From Desulfocapsa sp. (GTDB lineage Bacteria; Desulfobacterota; Desulfobulbia; Desulfobulbales; Desulfocapsaceae), in assembly GCA_024763035.1 (NCBI GenBank), contig JANTGG010000015.1:1-37058 (forward strand): a stretch of 37,058 nt of DNA, in the 5' to 3' direction. Shown here in pieces: positions 9,300-36,631 of this stretch (positions are counted from its first letter, which is position 1; every line of letters begins with the position of its first letter). Below the pieces are notes generated by a model. The model had not been told where the DNA came from. It made no database searches and was given only the letters and a program-made list of their open reading frames with translations. The position numbers and the translations under genes were made by a program.

Positions 9300-9848
9300 T
9301 TACTCTGTGACTCGCGTTTTCTGTAATATTGTTGTTTTCCCGGAATCCGTGTCGATTGCAGCGATCTCATGGACGTCATTAAAATGAAAACGCACCGTTT
9401 TTGATTTTCTTATATCGTCGATAATTTCATACGTTACGGAGAATTCTTCAGCCATCTGTTTAGTGTTTGTTCGTAATGTTTTATTCCTTCGATTATAGGA
9501 CCCGTATCGTTTCAGGTTGTAAAAACTCCAGACAGCCAGTGTACCGGAAAAAATACCAATTCCTGAAGAAAATGTTCCCATTTGGTGGAGAAGTCCGTCA
9601 AATCCGCCCAGTTCCACCATATGGATGTAGAGTATCTGAAAGCCAAACAGCCAGGCAATCAGACTGATGATGGGCAGCCAGAGGTAGGCCCAGAACCCCC
9701 AGAACAGAGTCGTCAGAATCCCCTCCCCGATAAGTAATGCTCTGGTCTTCAGGTCCGGTCTATTAATGATCAGATTTTCCGGATAATCTCGTAAGGGATC
9801 ATCTTGTAATCTCTTGGGAGATTGCTTATAAGAAAAATTGTCTGTCAT
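9300..9848 (-). CDS. pgaD: PgaD, poly-N-acetylglucosamine synthase accessory protein
   Basis: This 182-residue inner-membrane protein has two hydrophobic segments (around ILTTLFWGFWAYLWLPIISL and GIGIFSGTLAVWSFYNL) and a charged cytoplasmic C-terminal half. In E. coli PgaD pairs with the glycosyltransferase PgaC and the complex is activated by cyclic di-GMP. The family is poorly conserved, so the call rests on topology, the FWGFWAYLWLP stretch and its position as the last gene of the PGA operon, starting 3 bases after the pgaC stop codon. E. coli PgaD is shorter (about 137 residues); this one has a longer N-terminal (30-residue) and C-terminal tail. It is the final operon gene and converges with the epimerase gene; no clear terminator is seen in the 59-base gap. 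Confidence 0.85.
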   Translation of the reverse strand: MTDNFSYKQSPKRLQDDPLRDYPENLIINRPDLKTRALLIGEGILTTLFWGFWAYLWLPIISLIAWLFGFQILYIHMVELGGFDGLLHQMGTFSSGIGIFSGTLAVWSFYNLKRYGSYNRRNKTLRTNTKQMAEEFSVTYEIIDDIRKSKTVRFHFNDVHEIAAIDTDSGKTTILQKTRVTE

Positions 9849-9851
9849 GAT

Positions 9852-11111
9852 TTAGAGCCCCCGATCCGGGCTTTTCCAGATGGCACGCTGCCCTTTGGGT
9901 TTCAACAGTGCCTTGGGCACTCCAACACCAATGGTAAAGATGTTGATCAGCCAGAAGGCAACGGGATACCAGATGATCCAGAAATAATACTTACCGAATT
10001 TGCGGTCATATTTTGCATCAATGGTCATGCTGAGAGCAAATTGAATCAGGCAGGTAACACCGAGGAGGACACCTGTCCAGCCGGGCATTAAGGTTTTAAC
10101 GGTCAACATGGGAGGAAGTGTAAATACCTGTCCTGCTGCCCAGAGCAGGGTAATACCAATCATACAGTATGCCCAGATGACACTGGTTATGTATTCAACA
10201 AACACCATCACCATACGTCTTCTTTTCCAGTCCCAGATCCGTGTGAAATTTTTAATAAAAACCTCCACACCTCCCTGTGCCCAGCGGAGACGCTGTTTCC
10301 ATAAGCCGCTGAATGTTTCCGGCATGAGCAGCCAGCAGATGGCGTGGGGTTCATACCGTACATCCCAGAAATTCAACTGTAATTTCCAGCTGATATCGAT
10401 GTCCTCCGTTACCATATCCGTATCCCAGTAGCCAACCTGCTGCAGGGCGGAGCGGCGAAAGGCGGAAAGGGCACCGGAAACTGTGAACACCCTTCCGTAC
10501 ACGCGTTGTGCTCTTTTTATAAGGCCGATAATAGAGGAAAATTCTCCAACCTGGACTTTGGCAATTAATGTCGTTCTGTTTCGAATCCTGGGGTTGCCGG
10601 TTACAGCACCTACCCGGGGACTGTTGTACAGATGCCAGACCATCCAGCGGGCAGCATACGGATCCAGGATTACATCGCCATCAATACAGAGGAGAAATTC
10701 ATGGCGTGCGGCGAGGGCCCCCAAAGTCAGTCCTCTTGCTTTCCCCTGGTTGCTCTGCAGGTGGATAACGCGTAATCGGGACAGTTCTTCTGCAAGCTCA
10801 TCGAGGATCTCACCGGTGTCATCTGTACTGCCGTCATTGATGGCAATGATTTCAAAATCATCATATTTTTGCAGGTTAAGCCAGGCAATGGTTTCTCGAA
10901 TGTTTACTGATTCGTTATGACAGGGCACAAGAATGGATACGCCGGGATAGGTGTTTAGTTCCGGCGGGCGGCTCACATCGCAGCCAAAGGGTTTTTCCCA
11001 GCGGTAATAATAGATAAACGCCCCGGTCATCCATAGATATGCCATAAAAAGTGGATAATAGTAGGTGAAACTAAAGAAAGCAGTGGTGATATTTGAAAGG
11101 AATTGGACCAT
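9852..11111 (-). CDS. pgaC: PgaC, poly-beta-1,6-N-acetylglucosamine synthase
   Basis: This 419-residue family 2 processive glycosyltransferase is embedded in the inner membrane and polymerises UDP-GlcNAc. An N-terminal membrane segment (residues ~15-36) precedes the GT-A domain. Catalytic motifs are visible: NDGSTDDT at 92-99, DGD at 144-146, TED at 235-237 and QRLRW at 273-277 (the QxxRW motif of processive synthases). Further membrane helices fill residues ~305-400. Length and motif spacing match E. coli PgaC (441 residues) and IcaA. The start ATG at 11111 is 19 bases after the stop of the GH153 gene. PgaD is its partner, encoded immediately downstream. Confidence 0.96.
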   Translation of the reverse strand: MVQFLSNITTAFFSFTYYYPLFMAYLWMTGAFIYYYRWEKPFGCDVSRPPELNTYPGVSILVPCHNESVNIRETIAWLNLQKYDDFEIIAINDGSTDDTGEILDELAEELSRLRVIHLQSNQGKARGLTLGALAARHEFLLCIDGDVILDPYAARWMVWHLYNSPRVGAVTGNPRIRNRTTLIAKVQVGEFSSIIGLIKRAQRVYGRVFTVSGALSAFRRSALQQVGYWDTDMVTEDIDISWKLQLNFWDVRYEPHAICWLLMPETFSGLWKQRLRWAQGGVEVFIKNFTRIWDWKRRRMVMVFVEYITSVIWAYCMIGITLLWAAGQVFTLPPMLTVKTLMPGWTGVLLGVTCLIQFALSMTIDAKYDRKFGKYYFWIIWYPVAFWLINIFTIGVGVPKALLKPKGQRAIWKSPDRGL

Positions 11112-11130: not shown

Positions 11131-12294
11131 TTAGTTGAGGGACGGTACAATTTTACGTAAAAGTTGTTCTTGTGGATGATCCTTAATGAAATCATCCGGA
11201 TACCAGGCAAAAGAAGTTGCGTTTTTCTTTTTTAGAAGGAGTAATTGCTCCATCATTTTAATAGTAGGTATTATTTTCTTTTTTTGCCAGTGAATTGTTT
11301 GCAACTCAAATACCACCGCAGCAGGATTCATTGTTTCTTCAAGAACAGTGTCGGCAAGTGTGTCCAGCCACGAATCAGGATCATCAGCTTCTTCCATATA
11401 GGGCATTGCCATAAGAAATGTATAATCATACGCCTGCAGGTAAAGCGAGAGAGACTGGGCAAACCATTGTTCACTTACAGGTTTTAAAACCGGTAAGGCG
11501 TAAAGGTTACGGGCAGAACGGATATGCGGGTGTTTTTGGCGTATTATCTGGAGCAGGGTTTGTGAGAAGTTGATAAGTTCTTTTGTTTTAAACCGACTCC
11601 ATCTTGCAAATGTTCTGTTGTCTTTACGTATGCAGGAAACCGAGGCAGGGAATCCTGCCATTTTATATGCAGCAAGGGCATGGGGGGAACTGTCTTCAAA
11701 GTCGGTTAGTCTGCCGTCGTCATGAAAAAGAATGCCGTCGAGTATTTTTGTATTTGCCAGATCCCTATAAATTCCGCTGATTATTTTTCTGGATTCCGGG
11801 TTAAACGGTGAGAGACGATACGTGTTTGTACTGGAATACGCTGTCTTTCCGGATATGCCTTCCATGACTGCCAGGGCTTCTTTTTTTTTCGGAGGAATAA
11901 AGGCAAGCAAGGGGATCCAGGCATATATGGAGACATTGCACTGTTTCAATGCCTTAGCAGCAGTGGAGAAAAGGTCTTCCCGAAGGGGAAGGTAATCGTT
12001 TGGAAAGTAGAGTGCGGCGGCTGCATCATCACCGTCAGGATCTGCAAAAGCCTGCAGGGCAACAGTATCGACACCGATACCGCATATTCGTTTTACCAGT
12101 TGCTCAAGGTTTTTTGTTTGTTGGATACTATCTGGATCGTAGACATAATCAAGGTCAACCTGTACCGCCACAATGGGAAGCGTTGACTTTGCCTGGGCAG
12201 GAGTGGATACATACAGGAACAGGGAGAAAAATTGAAGGATACAAATCAGGACAAACACCTTCCATATCTGTGGAATTTTGGGACCAGTCAGCAT
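11131..12294 (-). CDS. Free-standing secreted GH153 glycosidase (PgaB C-terminal domain type)
   Basis: This 387-residue protein has an N-terminal signal peptide or anchor (VFVLICILQFFSLFLYVSTP, cleavage likely after AQA). The rest matches the C-terminal hydrolase half of E. coli PgaB, the GH153 domain that cleaves de-N-acetylated PNAG: VQVDLDYVYDPDSIQQ, LQAFADPDGD at 80-89, SIYAWIPLL, the catalytic-loop motif DGILFHDDGRLTDFED at 186-201, and a C-terminal FAWYPDDF. The acidic residues of the FHDD loop, which hold the catalytic Asp in E. coli PgaB, are kept. In E. coli this domain is fused to the deacetylase; here it is a separate gene whose ATG shares one base with the preceding stop (TAATG at 12296-12292). 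It presumably trims the polymer in the periplasm. The adjacent pgaB carries a degenerate copy of the same domain. Confidence 0.88.
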   Translation of the reverse strand: MLTGPKIPQIWKVFVLICILQFFSLFLYVSTPAQAKSTLPIVAVQVDLDYVYDPDSIQQTKNLEQLVKRICGIGVDTVALQAFADPDGDDAAAALYFPNDYLPLREDLFSTAAKALKQCNVSIYAWIPLLAFIPPKKKEALAVMEGISGKTAYSSTNTYRLSPFNPESRKIISGIYRDLANTKILDGILFHDDGRLTDFEDSSPHALAAYKMAGFPASVSCIRKDNRTFARWSRFKTKELINFSQTLLQIIRQKHPHIRSARNLYALPVLKPVSEQWFAQSLSLYLQAYDYTFLMAMPYMEEADDPDSWLDTLADTVLEETMNPAAVVFELQTIHWQKKKIIPTIKMMEQLLLLKKKNATSFAWYPDDFIKDHPQEQLLRKIVPSLN

Positions 12295-14087
12295 TATCGA
12301 AACGGATACGAAGTTTTACTTAAGAATGTTCTGATGATTCCCGCCGATGGTTGGCATTCCTGAAAATTATCATATTCATAGCCCCAGTTAATGATATTTC
12401 GTGAAGGCAGCATAGTGAGCTGATCCCGTAACTGTTTATCGGTGCCGTCATATTGAAGAAGAATGCTCATCTGCGGCAAAAGACCTGATTCTTCGAGTGT
12501 CGGCAGACAGGTGGTGAGGGTGTGTTGGGGATTGCTGCTGCTTTTTCGAGTATCGAGGAGCAGAAAATCAAAGTATTTCAGAAGATACTTTGTGGTTTTT
12601 GCATCCAGCTGGGGAAGCAAATCGGTGGAAACAACAAGTCCTAGCTCAACAAAGGGCTGCCAGTATTGAAAGGATTCCAGTTTCATAAAAGCAGAGGAGA
12701 TAATCGGGGTATCGGCAGCATGCACTGCATTCTTACGGGCAAGTCTACGCAGGGATGGATCCCAGGATTTAACAAAATTGTCATAGGGGTCAGAAGAAGC
12801 GGCAGCCTTCATAAGTGCGTCATTAAGTCTGGGATAGTCAATCAGTAAGCCCTCGCTGAAAGCAAAAGTACCCAGTTGCTTAAAAAACTCTCCTGCAGAA
12901 TCTGTTTTGGATGTATCTGCAGGAGAAAACATGGCTGCTGATAACCAGAGAAAGGTTCCTGTGGATCCCCTTTTAGAGGTATGCCAGGTCAGGCGTGTGA
13001 GACGATCCTGTGCCAGCGGATATCGTGAATTTTGAAACAGTGAATAGTGGCTGTTTTTTATCGTGACGGTGGGTTCAAAGACCACCATGTCAGGTTTGAT
13101 ATCGACAAGGCGATCAAGAAATGCTCCGAAATGAACCTCACTGCCGGCTGTGTCCAGAATATCAGCACTGTCCACTTTGAAAAAATGACGAATGGGATGG
13201 GGCAGATTAAGATTCAAGAACTCTCTGAATTCGGGTAGTTCCGGGTTCAGAGTGGGATATATTCGTCCGATTTCCTGAAGATTTGCTATGTTTCCAGGAA
13301 TCGGGTCGAGGGTGAGGGTAACAGGCATACCCGCCATTTCTGCGGCTTCAAGGGCTGCACTGTTATACTGTCCGAACGGCCAGACCATGACCCTTGGCGG
13401 ATGACCAAGATGCTTTGTGAGCAGTGCATTGTTTTTTTGCAGGTCGGTAAGAATCCGGTTTTTATGGGCAGCATCGTTTTCGTACTGTCCGGTATTTTTA
13501 TTGTAAATATGCGTGATTACAGCCGGTAGTCGGTCACCAGCTTTATCGGCAAGAACAGCCCTGTGCAGGTTATACGAGTGGGAAGCTATCTCCACTAAAC
13601 CGGATTGATCCAGTTTGCTTAACTGCTGCCATGTGAGAAATTTTTTACGGGGTACAAGGTTGTCACCGTAAAGAACATTGGCATTGGGTTCAGGTTCAAG
13701 CCATGTCCCAACAATGGCGAGAACTGCAGGGTAATTGTAGGCACGGAGCAGAGGAAACACTTTCTCATAAAAGCTGGTATAGCCATCATCCCAACAGAGG
13801 AGGACAGGTTTTTCAGGGAGCTTTTTTTCGCCGCGGTTAGCGAGGATCAGATCGGAAACAGAAACGGGATGGTAGTTGTTTGCCAGCAGCCACTCAAATT
13901 GATCAATGAGGTGATCGGTGGTCACCGCATCACTTGCCAGTTCCTCCCGCGTGTCCACCACGTCGTGATAGGCGATGGCAACAAACCGTCCACTGCCGGT
14001 ATCTGCACGGCAGTTAGCAGGCATAAGCAGTAATAATGCAGAAAGTGAAAGAAACAGAAGCTGTACTGTGTGTTTAGAATTTTCCAT
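12294..14087 (-). CDS. pgaB: PgaB, PNAG N-deacetylase with a degenerate GH153-like C-terminal domain
   Basis: This 597-residue periplasmic protein has a signal peptide (LLFLSLSALLLLMPANCRA). The Cys at 26 lies in PANC, which is not a good lipobox, although E. coli PgaB is a lipoprotein. Residues ~35-290 are a CE4-type polysaccharide deacetylase: AYHDVVD at 39-45, WDDGY at 99-103 and SHSYNLH with metal-type His170 and His175. Residues ~305-597 keep the order of GH153 elements: RYPLAQDRLTRLTW near 355, GTFLWLSAAMF near 377, and NIINWGYEYDNF at the end. The catalytic FHDD loop is replaced by SEGLLIDYPRLND (411-423), so glycosidase activity is probably lost there. The start overlaps the end of pgaA by 14 bases. 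Deacetylation is needed for PNAG export through PgaA. Confidence 0.9.
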   Translation of the reverse strand: MENSKHTVQLLFLSLSALLLLMPANCRADTGSGRFVAIAYHDVVDTREELASDAVTTDHLIDQFEWLLANNYHPVSVSDLILANRGEKKLPEKPVLLCWDDGYTSFYEKVFPLLRAYNYPAVLAIVGTWLEPEPNANVLYGDNLVPRKKFLTWQQLSKLDQSGLVEIASHSYNLHRAVLADKAGDRLPAVITHIYNKNTGQYENDAAHKNRILTDLQKNNALLTKHLGHPPRVMVWPFGQYNSAALEAAEMAGMPVTLTLDPIPGNIANLQEIGRIYPTLNPELPEFREFLNLNLPHPIRHFFKVDSADILDTAGSEVHFGAFLDRLVDIKPDMVVFEPTVTIKNSHYSLFQNSRYPLAQDRLTRLTWHTSKRGSTGTFLWLSAAMFSPADTSKTDSAGEFFKQLGTFAFSEGLLIDYPRLNDALMKAAASSDPYDNFVKSWDPSLRRLARKNAVHAADTPIISSAFMKLESFQYWQPFVELGLVVSTDLLPQLDAKTTKYLLKYFDFLLLDTRKSSSNPQHTLTTCLPTLEESGLLPQMSILLQYDGTDKQLRDQLTMLPSRNIINWGYEYDNFQECQPSAGIIRTFLSKTSYPFR

Positions 14088-16545
14088 TGAGCATAAATCG
14101 TATTAAGCTGTAAGGTTCTGCATGACCGTCGTAAACGCTTTGACCGAATTCCGCTCCGGCCTGCATCTCTATCCATGATGAGAAACGATAACGTTGTTCA
14201 TACCTGATATGTCCAATCCAGCGGGACGCAAATCCTTTCTGTTCGTAAAAGCCATATCCCAGGTCAAGCTGATGTGAAAAAGAGTGTTTGTACTTTCGAT
14301 GATAGATGTGTTCGGCATGTAAGGCTCCCTGAAGGCTGAAATCGTATTCGGGACTGTAATAGGGAACATTGGTGTCACTGTTGGTGGAGCTGTACAGCTC
14401 TACACGTCCGTCAATATCGAGGTGAGGGATATTGATCAGTCGTTGTTGAAAAACAGCACCCCCTTCCACACGGTCATTGCCGTCTGTAAAGGGAGAGTAT
14501 TTGATATTGGCGGCAAGCATCCGCATCTCACTTGCCCGATAAACGGTGGCGGCAGAAACGGCATCAGCACGAATTCCGTGGAACAGGGCTCTAAGAGGAG
14601 TTGAATCGGCAAATCGCTCACCGGTCAGATTCAGATTCCAGAGGTCATTGGGCTGCCAGATGATTTTGAGTTTGGCACCTGTTTCTTTAACACTGGAGTC
14701 ATTATAATTCACATATCCAAGGAGATCCAGATCACCACGATTATATTCCAGGCCCATACTATATCGGTGATAGGTCTCTTCTCCTTCAATGATCTGAGCC
14801 CATGAGTATTTATAGCCGCCGCTGAGCTTCCAGACATCATTAACAGGGGAGGAAAGAAGCTCTGCACTGGCAAGCATACTGTCACCATTGAGTTCAGGTC
14901 CGGAAGAATTGCCGTAGGAAATATCGCTCCAATAGGATGGCTTCCTGCTAAACAGCAACTGTTCCTCCACTCCTTTCACTGCCGGTTCCTGCGGATATGT
15001 TTCTTTGAGATTTTTTAGAAGGGAAGCAGCCTCCTGATAGCGGTGCAGATTGATATAGCTTGCAGTTTGTCCCACCACTGCATCAAGACTTTCAGGTGCT
15101 GTTAATTCAGCCAGGTGATAGTCAGCAAGTGCCTGACGGGGCCATCCTCTTGCAAGGCTCACTTGTCCGCGTACTTCAAGAAGCCAGTTGTTGCGCGGTG
15201 CACGGAGTACCAGTGCATTAATCCTTTCCCAGGCATCATCAAGTTGATTTCCATAAAAGCGTGCCTGAATAGAGGCAACATGGAGATCAAGATATCGTTC
15301 ATTTGGGTATTTACTTTTACTATCCCAGAAATTGAGAAATTTGGGCTCTCGCACGACCATGGAATCGATAAGTGTGTATGCTGAAGAAAAATCTTCACTT
15401 TCAATGAAAGAATAAAAACGCCCAAGGTTTGCCTGATAATTCTTTGGATCTTCTGACGCAAGTTGTTCATAGATTTCCAGTGCCTGCTGTGGATGCCTGG
15501 AGGCGAGGAGACTGTCTGCCCTGGCCTGCCGGACGTAGTCGGGTAGTGGACCGGAATGCTCAAGAATATTATACATGTTTAGAAGGGCTTCCATCTGACG
15601 AAGATTACGCAGAGTGATAAGCATATCGAACATGATCCCACGGCGTTTAGGATGGTTTGCAGGGAGCAGTGCCAGGGCTCGTATTTGGAAGGCAAGGGCA
15701 TGCATTGAAAGGAGACGTGTTTCTTTGAAATTCCTGTTTGCGTCTGTGCTCCAGCGTAATAATTCTGCCGCTCTATTCATGAAAAGAGTTGAGATTTCTT
15801 CACCGGTTATGAGTTCAGGTGAAGAAGTGTGTTTCGTCATTGCCAGGCTTGCTGCACGTAATCGGTTCAGGGTGAGAAGTTCCTGTCGCAGCAGGAATGA
15901 ATCACCAGGGAAGTCCTGGAGCAGGGTTTCGTATTCGTTCAGTGCTGCAAACCAATTAAATCGGTGTTCCTGCAGATAGCCTGCAGCGAGGTGAAAGTCC
16001 CTGCTGTTTGCAGCTTTTACAGAAATTGTGGCAAGTAACTGTTCTGCTTCATCTAACTTATCATTATCAATCAGAACCAGAGCCATACGCAGCAGATACC
16101 GGTCATTGCCGGGATGTTCGGCAACAAGTTGACTTATGAGTACAAGTGCTTGTGTTCCCAGTTTTAAATTACGGTAGGTGTTAACCATGGCGAAACGAAC
16201 ATAGGCGGGGTATGTGGCAGTATTTTCGTTCTCAAACAGGGTGGCAGCACGTCTGTTTTTTCCTGCCCAGCCTAAAACAACAATCAGGTCGTTGAGAATT
16301 GATGCGTCTTCGGGGTGTTGCTGATGCAGCGTGTTTAGAATGTCGGCACCTTTTTCTGCATGTCCTTCACGGGCAAGTTGGACAGCCTGTTCATGTTGTG
16401 ACTTCTCGGAATGGACAGAAGCGGCAATGGCATGGAATGATGAGAATATGAGTGACAGCAGTAGACAGAGAGGTACCGCAGCATGTATTAAAAAGATGCC
16501 TGTATGATGCAAATTACTCTGACGAAAGGTCTGGGGTTTGGACAT
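14074..16545 (-). CDS. pgaA: PgaA, outer-membrane porin for PNAG export
   Basis: This 823-residue protein exports partly deacetylated PNAG across the outer membrane. A long signal segment (residues ~15-42, ending HAIAAS) is followed by a TPR superhelix up to ~residue 540 (for example HPQQALEIYEQLASEDPKN and SLARGWPRQALADYHLAEL), which in E. coli binds the polymer and PgaB. The last ~290 residues are a 16-stranded-type beta-barrel with alternating aromatic strands and a C-terminal Phe. The block STPLRALFHGIRADAVSA resembles the conserved PgaA barrel entry. E. coli PgaA is 807 residues. It is the first gene of the operon and overlaps pgaB. No clear Shine-Dalgarno precedes the ATG at 16545, which may limit its translation. 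Confidence 0.94.
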   Translation of the reverse strand: MSKPQTFRQSNLHHTGIFLIHAAVPLCLLLSLIFSSFHAIAASVHSEKSQHEQAVQLAREGHAEKGADILNTLHQQHPEDASILNDLIVVLGWAGKNRRAATLFENENTATYPAYVRFAMVNTYRNLKLGTQALVLISQLVAEHPGNDRYLLRMALVLIDNDKLDEAEQLLATISVKAANSRDFHLAAGYLQEHRFNWFAALNEYETLLQDFPGDSFLLRQELLTLNRLRAASLAMTKHTSSPELITGEEISTLFMNRAAELLRWSTDANRNFKETRLLSMHALAFQIRALALLPANHPKRRGIMFDMLITLRNLRQMEALLNMYNILEHSGPLPDYVRQARADSLLASRHPQQALEIYEQLASEDPKNYQANLGRFYSFIESEDFSSAYTLIDSMVVREPKFLNFWDSKSKYPNERYLDLHVASIQARFYGNQLDDAWERINALVLRAPRNNWLLEVRGQVSLARGWPRQALADYHLAELTAPESLDAVVGQTASYINLHRYQEAASLLKNLKETYPQEPAVKGVEEQLLFSRKPSYWSDISYGNSSGPELNGDSMLASAELLSSPVNDVWKLSGGYKYSWAQIIEGEETYHRYSMGLEYNRGDLDLLGYVNYNDSSVKETGAKLKIIWQPNDLWNLNLTGERFADSTPLRALFHGIRADAVSAATVYRASEMRMLAANIKYSPFTDGNDRVEGGAVFQQRLINIPHLDIDGRVELYSSTNSDTNVPYYSPEYDFSLQGALHAEHIYHRKYKHSFSHQLDLGYGFYEQKGFASRWIGHIRYEQRYRFSSWIEMQAGAEFGQSVYDGHAEPYSLIRFMLNGKF

Positions 16546-34429: not shown

Positions 34430-36631
34430 CTAACGACCGGAGCCAGTAATTGCGGGAAGCATCAGATTCCAGAAACTGCCCTTACCCAAATCGGGAACTA
34501 CAGGCACTTTCCACCAGGCCACCTCATCTTCAAAAAAACCGGCAGCAAGTATATCAAGCCTCCCGTCTCTATCCATATCTGCAGCATACACGGAGCTGGC
34601 GCCATTAAACGAGTCATCAGTCATTCTCTCTTGCCAGGCAGTCCCTGTACCGTCCGTATTTTCCCACCAGGCAATATCATCAGCATCATATGCTGCCCCC
34701 AAGACATCAACATCCCCATCATTATCGAGGTCTGCCGCATAAACAGAACGCGCACCATTAAAGGAACCATCTATAGTCCGCTCAACCCATGAAACACCTG
34801 TACCTGCAGTATTTTCCCACCAGGTTATGTCATCATGAGAGTAGGCGGCTCCTAGAATATCAAGGTCTCCATCTCCGTCAATATCTTCTGCATAGACTGA
34901 TTGAGCGCGGTAAAAGTAGGTATCCACAGCATGCATTGTCCAAGCAGTCCCTGTACCGTCAGTATTTTCCCACCAGGTTATGTCAGAGGCATAATAAGCA
35001 GCACCAAGGACATCCAGGTCGCCATCGCCATCGACATCAGCACAATAAACCGCATAGGCGCCGTCAAAAGAAGACGAGACCATGTGTTTTGTCCAGCTCG
35101 TCCCTGAACCATTGCTGTTTTCCCACCAGTGTATACTGTCTCCATTGTAGGCGGCTCCAAGTACATCCAGGTCACCATCCCCATCAACATCAGCACCATA
35201 GACGGAATTTGCGCCATCAAAGGCATCATCAATAACATGCTCAACCCATGATATCCCCTGTCCACCGACATTCTCCCACCAGCTGATGGTGTCAGCATTG
35301 TAGGCCGCTCCAATAATATCAAAGTCACCATCTCCGTCCACATCCATACCATGCACTGACCGTGCGCCATCAAAGGTGTCATCAACAATATGTTCAGTCC
35401 ACGCTGTTCCGTTTCCATCGCTGTTTTCCCACCAGGCAATATCATCAGCATATTCTGCCGCACCCAGCACATCCAGATCACCGTCATTATCCACATCGGC
35501 CGCATAAACAGAACGCGCGCCATCAAAAGTACCATCAACAGTCTGTTTCTCATACTGCAAAACGGTGAGGGTCGCGCTGTTACTGGTTGCAGAACCTCCT
35601 AAATTACTCACTATACACCTGTATTTGGCTCCGTCATCTGCACTCTGCGTCACTGGTGTTGTGTAGTCTGTGGAGACCGCACCCGATATGTCCACTCCAT
35701 CTTTCTGCCACTGGTATTCAAGATATGGTCCGACGGCAGTGACGGAAAATGTCGCACTAATTCCTTCATCCACAATCTGGTTCACAGGATGCCCGGTAAT
35801 TACCGGTACACTTTGCTGTTCCACTGTCAATGTTGCAGGATTACTGACAAGGCTGACTCCCTCATCATTACTGACAACACAGGTAAATTGCGACCCGTTA
35901 TCGGAATACCCTGTTGCCGGGGTCGTATACTCAGCCTCAACAGCACCAAGGATATCAACCCCGTCCTTCTGCCATTGATAATGTATCGGGCAGCCATCGG
36001 CAGCTACAGAAAAAACGGCTGTTTCAGTCTCTGTTACGGTCTGATCAGAAGGATGCACATTTATAACCGGTGAATAGGTTGTTTCTGCTGTCACGTCAAA
36101 AACAAGCCTGCTGAATTCCTCAAGCCCCGGTCCGAATTTCACAAATCTCGCATCACCTGATTCACCATCGTATGAGAGAATTCGTAATGAAAGCTCATCA
36201 CAGGGAGTTATTGTTTCAGTGATTGCAATGGCTGTTGACACTTCAATAAATGAGTACGCATCACAGGGATATTCTGTGATATTAAAATGTGTCGTCCCGA
36301 TATCTCTTCCATTTTTCTGCAAAAACAGTGTAAAAGATGCCACATCAGCAGTTCCGCCAGAACAGGCGGCCAGCAGTAAACCAATGTCCACGGTCTGAGA
36401 ACCACTGCTCACATAATTCAGACTGCCCGAAAAGGTAACATCGAGATCAGGCTGAGACTGCACTGAAAACTCAAAGGTCTGTACTGTATGCTGAAGCACC
36501 TTACTTTGTTCATCCATATCATATCCAACGTAAAGTGTTTCAACTGCTGACACGCAGATACCGGGCTTGAATAATAAAAAGGCAGCAACCAACAGAATCG
36601 ATAACACCTGAAAATTTTTATTCCTGTTCAT
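34430..36631 (-). CDS. Secreted protein with two Ig-like domains and seven FG-GAP/VCBS-type repeats
   Basis: This 733-residue protein has a signal peptide (VLSILLVAAFLLFKPGICVS). Residues ~30-190 are an unclassified beta-rich domain with four Cys. Two Ig-like domains follow (~190-270 and ~272-355), each with a YQWQKDGVDI strand and a ...SNxATLTV end. Then come seven ~51-residue repeats of the form SVYAADVDGDGDLDVLGAAY...WWEN; the DxDxDGD motif is a calcium-binding FG-GAP/VCBS signature and seven copies suit a seven-bladed propeller. The last repeat is worn (DMDRDGRLD, WWKV). The tail FWNLMLPAITGSGR is hydrophobic. A cell-surface or extracellular adhesive role is likely; no enzyme domain is seen. 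AGGAG lies upstream of the ATG at 36631. Confidence 0.88.
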   Translation of the reverse strand: MNRNKNFQVLSILLVAAFLLFKPGICVSAVETLYVGYDMDEQSKVLQHTVQTFEFSVQSQPDLDVTFSGSLNYVSSGSQTVDIGLLLAACSGGTADVASFTLFLQKNGRDIGTTHFNITEYPCDAYSFIEVSTAIAITETITPCDELSLRILSYDGESGDARFVKFGPGLEEFSRLVFDVTAETTYSPVINVHPSDQTVTETETAVFSVAADGCPIHYQWQKDGVDILGAVEAEYTTPATGYSDNGSQFTCVVSNDEGVSLVSNPATLTVEQQSVPVITGHPVNQIVDEGISATFSVTAVGPYLEYQWQKDGVDISGAVSTDYTTPVTQSADDGAKYRCIVSNLGGSATSNSATLTVLQYEKQTVDGTFDGARSVYAADVDNDGDLDVLGAAEYADDIAWWENSDGNGTAWTEHIVDDTFDGARSVHGMDVDGDGDFDIIGAAYNADTISWWENVGGQGISWVEHVIDDAFDGANSVYGADVDGDGDLDVLGAAYNGDSIHWWENSNGSGTSWTKHMVSSSFDGAYAVYCADVDGDGDLDVLGAAYYASDITWWENTDGTGTAWTMHAVDTYFYRAQSVYAEDIDGDGDLDILGAAYSHDDITWWENTAGTGVSWVERTIDGSFNGARSVYAADLDNDGDVDVLGAAYDADDIAWWENTDGTGTAWQERMTDDSFNGASSVYAADMDRDGRLDILAAGFFEDEVAWWKVPVVPDLGKGSFWNLMLPAITGSGR

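Follow-up and report, generated by a model that had tools for sequence, protein, structure and literature searches.

The 37,058-nt stretch of Desulfocapsa sp. DNA analyzed here (contig JANTGG010000015.1; hereafter the window, to which all coordinates refer) carries a predicted poly-N-acetylglucosamine (PNAG) synthesis and export operon in which the PgaB deacetylase is fused to a degenerate GH153 barrel and an intact GH153 is encoded as a separate protein by the next gene. The pgaB variant P0002 (12294..14087, minus strand; 597 aa; TIGR03938 at 400.2 bits, cut-off 321.9) comprises a signal region and PNAG deacetylase domain (residues 1-289; 13221..14087, minus strand; PF01522, E 1.2e-21) followed by the degenerate barrel, here termed psiGH (residues 299-597; 12297..13193, minus strand), which was assigned from the profile comparison, residue table, dN/dS values and eight modeled core strands given below. 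The deacetylase domain is abbreviated DA and the whole fusion DA-psiGH. A one-base overlap (TAATG on the minus strand) connects its gene to that of the free-standing GH153 hydrolase P0001 (11131..12294, minus strand; 387 aa), which has a signal-like N-terminus and an intact catalytic loop (PF14883, E 7.9e-113; structure 6au1, E 1.9e-85). Both open reading frames and their overlap lie where the initial annotation of this DNA had placed them. Judged from sequence, two PgaB functions that are normally joined seem to have been pulled apart in this sulfur-cycle bacterium and a few relatives.

Searches with the window's own sequence gave little indication of what psiGH is. At E ≤ 1, Pfam identified only the deacetylase in P0002, and the C-terminal 299 residues alone matched no Pfam family at E ≤ 0.1; by phmmer, residues 34-385 aligned to E. 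coli PgaB (4f9d), and residues 298-389 weakly matched the Bordetella GH153 structure 6au1 (E 0.001). With psiGH sequences from all nine genomes found to encode DA-psiGH, PF14883 matched six of the nine at E ≤ 0.1 (best 6.3e-7), the copy of genome G499 passing the gathering score of 27 bits at 28.2 and those of G422 (24.4) and G105 (20.3) falling below it. Comparison of a nine-sequence psiGH profile with 18 GH153 domains by hhalign returned a probability of 98.4% and an E-value of 7.6e-15 over 290 columns, against E 0.05 for the reversed profile and E 0.031 (probability 1.6%) for the best of 20 column shuffles; the window's psiGH alone reached E 0.00021 at 46% probability. Thirty columns are invariant across the nine sequences, and the terminal WGYEYDNF motif, already read as a GH153 element in the initial annotation, aligns with GYYPDNF of fused PgaB. 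The eight uncut psiGH copies are 299-312 residues long, compared with 354-380 for the fused and outgroup domains used.

Structure prediction pointed the same way. An AlphaFold model built from the nine DA-psiGH rows alone, without any GH153 row, had a mean predicted local distance difference test score (pLDDT) of 67.8 and a predicted template modeling score (pTM) of 0.53, and matched 4f9j (E 1.0e-31) and the GH153 structure 6au1 (E 3.1e-13) in Foldseek. After 12 canonical PgaB rows were added (pLDDT 86.7, pTM 0.86), eight core strands alternating with helices were modeled between residues 301 and 571, and Foldseek aligned this second model to 4f9d at E 1.7e-42 over 601 columns with a template modeling score of 0.73. 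Counting against the fold assignment, the second model depends on the canonical family through the rows added, and the root-mean-square deviations are high (7.8 Å for 4f9d and 9.0 Å for 6au1), both domains having been superposed together and not separately. Because the profile comparison with its controls and the AlphaFold and Foldseek results agree, psiGH is predicted to be a GH153 descendant with a (beta/alpha)8 fold. The earlier proposal that the fused domain follows GH153 is thus weak from the window's sequence, which has no Pfam match, and firm once the nine relatives are included; the two findings named as speaking against it, lack of a TIM barrel and lack of GH153 profile similarity, were looked for and are contradicted by the eight strands and the hhalign probability. 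Three other explanations were tried and rejected. The reversed and shuffled hhalign controls rule out an unrelated domain; a single frameshifted PgaB is ruled out by the presence of two GH153-derived domains in two genes whose order is conserved in relatives, and a mere annotation split by the signal-like N-terminus on each of the two proteins.

The catalytic aspartate of GH153 and most of the tested binding residues are missing from psiGH. Residue numbers follow the Bordetella PgaB mutants characterized in PMC5933820 and were transferred through alignment to nine psiGH, seven free, 12 fused and three outgroup GH153 domains. The catalytic aspartate D474 is present in none of the nine psiGH and in every free (7/7), fused (12/12) and outgroup (3/3) domain, which bears out the loss of the catalytic loop noted initially. 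D328 and D364 are likewise absent from all nine, E585 is lost in eight with a gap in the ninth, the position of H473 is Asp or Asn in all nine, and the RLSPF loop is a gap throughout. D326 is kept in four psiGH and lost in five, W336 is not conserved, and all nine retain the barrel tryptophan belonging to the AWxP motif. In the 22 other domains D326, D328, D364, D474 and E585 are always present, and the H473 position is His in 16 and Gln or Ser in six. By these alignments psiGH has lost its catalytic residue together with the +2 residue and most residues of the -3 subsite; it is read as a descendant of GH153 and not as a GH153 enzyme.

The free-standing protein has the key residues that psiGH has lost. 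PF14883/GHL13 covers P0001 over its full profile length (1-324 of 324) at 377.2 bits (cut-off 27), and D474, D326, D328, D364, H473 and E585 are all present, as they are in each of the seven free copies compared; P0001 is classified as an intact GH153, a predicted hydrolase of deacetylated PNAG. The initial description of the pair as a degenerate GH153 fused to the deacetylase beside an intact free copy therefore stands, with hhalign E 7.6e-15 for the former and the P0001 match to PF14883 for the latter. In the deacetylase domain, D100, D101, H170 and H175, which we take to be the catalytic and metal-binding residues by analogy with E. coli PgaB, are invariant in 21 of 21 aligned PgaB sequences. 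A lipobox scan found relaxed matches in four of the seven free GH153 (L062, L080, L081 and L095), one of them strict, and none in the window's free GH153 or in eight of the nine DA-psiGH; the DA-psiGH of G423 has two relaxed matches, both ahead of its hydrophobic stretch. The free GH153 may accordingly be lipid-anchored in some relatives.

Around this pair, the operon runs pgaA, DA-psiGH, free GH153, pgaC, pgaD, all on the minus strand. PgaA (14074..16545; 823 aa; TIGR03939 at 599.6 bits, cut-off 366.65; PF21197) is a predicted outer-membrane porin with a tetratricopeptide repeat (TPR) domain, PgaC (9852..11111; 419 aa; TIGR03937 at 609.5 bits, cut-off 422.3) the PNAG synthase, and PgaD (9300..9848) a protein of 182 aa (TIGR03940 at 77.3 bits, cut-off 31.45). 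With pgaA, pgaB, pgaC and pgaD each above its curated NCBIfam cut-off, the locus is assigned to the pgaABCD type. Promoter and terminator scans stayed near the shuffle level (10 versus a mean of 13.7, and 10 versus 8.2, respectively). Divergent from pgaA lies a gene for a Phenol_MetA_deg family protein (PF13557; 17077-18042, plus strand), and elsewhere the window encodes an RHS-repeat protein of 1049 aa (PF05593; 186-3335, plus strand), a multihaem cytochrome c (PF13447; 4420-5715, minus strand) and a likely surface protein with immunoglobulin domains followed by FG-GAP repeats (34430-36631, minus strand).

The split arrangement is rare among the genomes searched. Among 395 genomes of the phylum, protein searching recovered one other whole-length match, in G105 (46% identity, residues 17-596), which has the same operon. 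Profile searches of 257 genomes of the window's order matched 11, namely eight with DA-psiGH and three from the same genus with ordinary fused PgaB, matched weakly; PF14883 likewise matched 11 of these genomes (seven free, three fused, one fragment). Among 389 genomes of the class of G105, drawn from a larger group, DA-psiGH was matched in G105 only. This gives nine DA-psiGH genomes, eight in the window's order and G105 outside it, and the three loci returned by a psiGH scan of named contigs (an uncultured Desulfobulbaceae bacterium, an uncultured Desulfocapsa sp. and a Desulfobacterales metagenome-assembled genome) lie within these nine. Eight of the nine encode a free GH153, flanked by DA-psiGH and pgaC in every operon whose contig covers both flanks. 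The five-gene arrangement, which the initial annotation had suggested seeking in relatives, was found on one contig in five of the nine; three more have a free GH153 in an operon cut by contig ends. A single genus holds both the fused (L085, L086 and L087) and the split form (the window and L062). G421 has no more than a piece of GH153 close to the end of a contig, and this genome was left unclassified. Alignments and trees used seven of the eight free GH153, omitting that of G427, which is truncated by contig ends; the DA-psiGH of G422, also cut by a contig end, was trimmed to 550 residues in some alignments. PF14883 matched 64 genomes, of which the 53 scoring 104 bits or less at best were set aside, save for the open reading frame tables of L013 and L014. 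These two loci encode divergent PgaB-like fusions with interrupted PF14883 matches and were not included in the fused set of 12.

Phylogenetic analysis placed the deacetylase domains of the split form in one clade (support 100/100; G509, G105 and G499 are not resolved in this tree), the free GH153 in another (100/99 without psiGH in the tree, 100/100 with it) and psiGH in a third (100/100), which has a stem of 4.87 and is joined with weak support to the fused PgaB of G208 (82/65). PgaA of the nine genomes also forms one clade (100/100). The psiGH and free GH153 clades share the sub-groups G105/G499, G417/G418 and G422/G423. Since G105, from outside the order, pairs with G499, from the window's genus, in four trees (free GH153 100/99, psiGH 86/95, PgaA 100/99, PgaC 100/98; the PgaC tree was built without G427 and G422), the operon appears to move between lineages, which suggests horizontal transfer as the likely route.

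One operon has psiGH and no accompanying hydrolase gene. In G509 (L084, 2955-8899), pgaA, DA-psiGH, pgaC and pgaD each overlap the next, so an assembly gap cannot be hiding a gene between DA-psiGH and pgaC; all four score above their NCBIfam cut-offs, pgaD narrowly (31.9 versus 31.45). PF14883 detected no GH153 at E ≤ 0.001 in this genome, which is 87% complete in about 590 contigs. G509 branches first in the psiGH tree (the other eight at 84/84) and lies outside the other eight in the PgaA tree (99/99). Its PgaC, with a branch length of 2.21, does not join the split clade, an affinity unlike that of its PgaA and PgaB, and a mosaic operon is possible.

The initial annotation had explained the two GH153 modules by tandem duplication, which the trees neither show nor exclude. 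Within the same broad PgaB clade, psiGH and free GH153 are not sisters in the best tree, psiGH being placed weakly beside a fused PgaB, but forcing them together is not rejected (approximately unbiased test, p 0.322), and the deepest branch, G509, has psiGH with no free copy found. In a different order of events, inactivation of the fused domain would have come first, and the free GH153 would have been acquired afterwards from another PgaB that shed its deacetylase; we give this somewhat less than an even chance. It would account for the early branching of G509 in the PgaA and psiGH trees, and a tree joining free GH153 to same-genus fused PgaB is likewise not rejected (p 0.434). However, loss of the free copy in G509 would explain the same trees, the grouping with psiGH is tolerated too, the long stem leaves the place of psiGH unsure, and neither the deacetylase tree, with G509 unresolved, nor the PgaC of G509 lends support.

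Whatever its origin, psiGH appears to change under purifying selection. Nei-Gojobori ratios of nonsynonymous to synonymous substitution (dN/dS) in two close pairs were 0.16 and 0.29 for psiGH, 0.11 and 0.18 for the deacetylase domain and 0.24 and 0.34 for the free GH153, psiGH thus lying below the intact enzyme in the same pairs; in two more distant pairs synonymous sites were saturated or nearly so. Decay into a functionless remnant could be read from the faster evolution of psiGH than of the deacetylase (35% versus 57% identity between the window and G105), but the low dN/dS makes it very improbable, as do the 30 invariant columns, the eight core strands and the open frames in all nine genomes. 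The earlier claim that the fused copy is retained is in line with these values.

As to what is being retained, we lean slightly towards psiGH as a non-catalytic barrel that probably does not bind polymer in the known groove and supports the deacetylase and the export complex, leaving trimming as a separable function. PNAG made by PgaCD would reach the periplasm and be deacetylated by DA-psiGH at PgaA's TPR arm. In this step psiGH would serve as a structural partner, sustaining deacetylase activity and the architecture of the complex. The free GH153 would then trim the deacetylated polymer as a detachable subunit that could be regulated, relocated or, as in G509, absent. We favor such a partner over a polymer-holding or docking module because the groove residues are lost and because of findings on known PgaB proteins. 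The E. coli deacetylase domain is not active alone (PMC5933820), and Y. pestis biofilm is normal when alanine replaces the residues of its PgaB that correspond to D364 and D474 (PMC5933820). The E. coli deacetylase domain alone suffices for interaction with PgaA and is pulled down by it, and the N-terminal TPR region of PgaA affects hydrolase activity, with a contact to the hydrolase domain proposed (PMC9384988). Of the two roles initially suggested for the fused copy, polymer binding is weakened, five of the six assayed charged residues being gone and RLSPF deleted in all nine, and PgaA docking would by itself be an insufficient reason to keep it given the pull-down by the deacetylase domain.

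Several points weigh against psiGH as a deacetylase partner. Its support of the deacetylase is extrapolated from E. coli, and the Bordetella deacetylase domain reportedly works alone. The ARN position is a gap in all nine psiGH in the residue table, and other methods align other residues there. A GH153 elsewhere in G509 could have been missed because that genome is incomplete and fragmented. Gene copy number may be masking an effect in Y. pestis, as the same paper cautions, and E. coli constructs without the C-terminal domain of PgaB abolish biofilm (PMC5933820), a phenotype to be expected whether it is the barrel or the hydrolase that is required. Finally, the remodeled groove could still bind sugar, as the tryptophan kept in all nine psiGH and D326 in four may indicate. 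Taken further, psiGH would be a carbohydrate-binding pseudo-glycosidase that holds or guides PNAG or its deacetylated form without cleaving it. Catalytically dead TIM-barrel lectins related to GH18 chitinases exist, and SPC-40-like entries occur among the weak Foldseek matches of the first model. We nevertheless consider this role unlikely, with D328, D364 and E585 lost, the RLSPF loop deleted and W336 not conserved; in addition, the E. coli protein builds its (GlcNAc)4 site largely from the beta5-alpha5 loop (PMC5933820), and in the psiGH alignments this loop is shortened by about five to six residues. Alternatively, psiGH might hold the free GH153 beside the deacetylase as a docking platform. 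Co-inheritance of the pair in eight of nine genomes and the sub-groups common to both clades agree with this, but G509 keeps psiGH with no GH153 found, and we regard a docking platform as quite improbable.

Parts of this organization have precedents. E. coli and Bordetella PgaB (BpsB), a fusion of deacetylase and GH153, shares operon order, deacetylase, two-domain layout and fold with the window's system, from which it differs in that the window's fused barrel is shorter and lacks the catalytic Asp and a separate GH153 has been added. P0001 shares the key residues of characterized GH153 hydrolases (PMC5933820) but is free-standing with its own signal-like N-terminus instead of being a PgaB domain. 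In the Gram-positive Pel operon (PelA-DA and a separate PelA-H), deacetylase and hydrolase are also on separate proteins, although polymer and families differ and the excerpt describes a deacetylase domain only, with no mention of a leftover hydrolase (PMC7112168). IcaB and the GH-less PgaB clades resemble the window's PgaB in having a deacetylase without an active hydrolase, but they lack the GH domain, and the Gram-negative ones are described as being without detectable pgaA and pgaD (PMC7112194). A literature search covering titles and abstract openings, with supplementary files and most subscription journals outside its reach, returned, among the matches listed, no PNAG operon that combines a retained dead GH153 fusion with an additional intact copy. 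As far as these sources go, separate deacetylase and hydrolase genes and GH-less PgaB were already known, and the retained dead GH153 with an added intact copy is new.

In the excerpts of PMC5933820, PMC7112194 and PMC9384988, the E. coli PgaB C-terminal domain is critical for export, needed for deacetylase activity and also cleaves the polymer, and the role of the hydrolase is called unresolved. Because the one domain both supports export and deacetylation and cleaves, these roles are confounded in deletions. The lineage described here looks like a natural separation of function, with a barrel without its catalytic residue, an active site on its own and one operon in which no hydrolase was found, which makes the role of the hydrolase directly testable. 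A more doubtful extension is that PNAG export has no need of a hydrolase, the ancestral pgaABCD operon having held a deacetylase with a dead barrel, as in G509, and GH153 having been regained later by most descendants as a detachable, sometimes lipid-anchored subunit. If so, hydrolysis would be optional and tunable, and what is essential in the second PgaB domain would be the barrel itself. For biofilm dispersal, free-standing GH153 enzymes may be convenient reagents.

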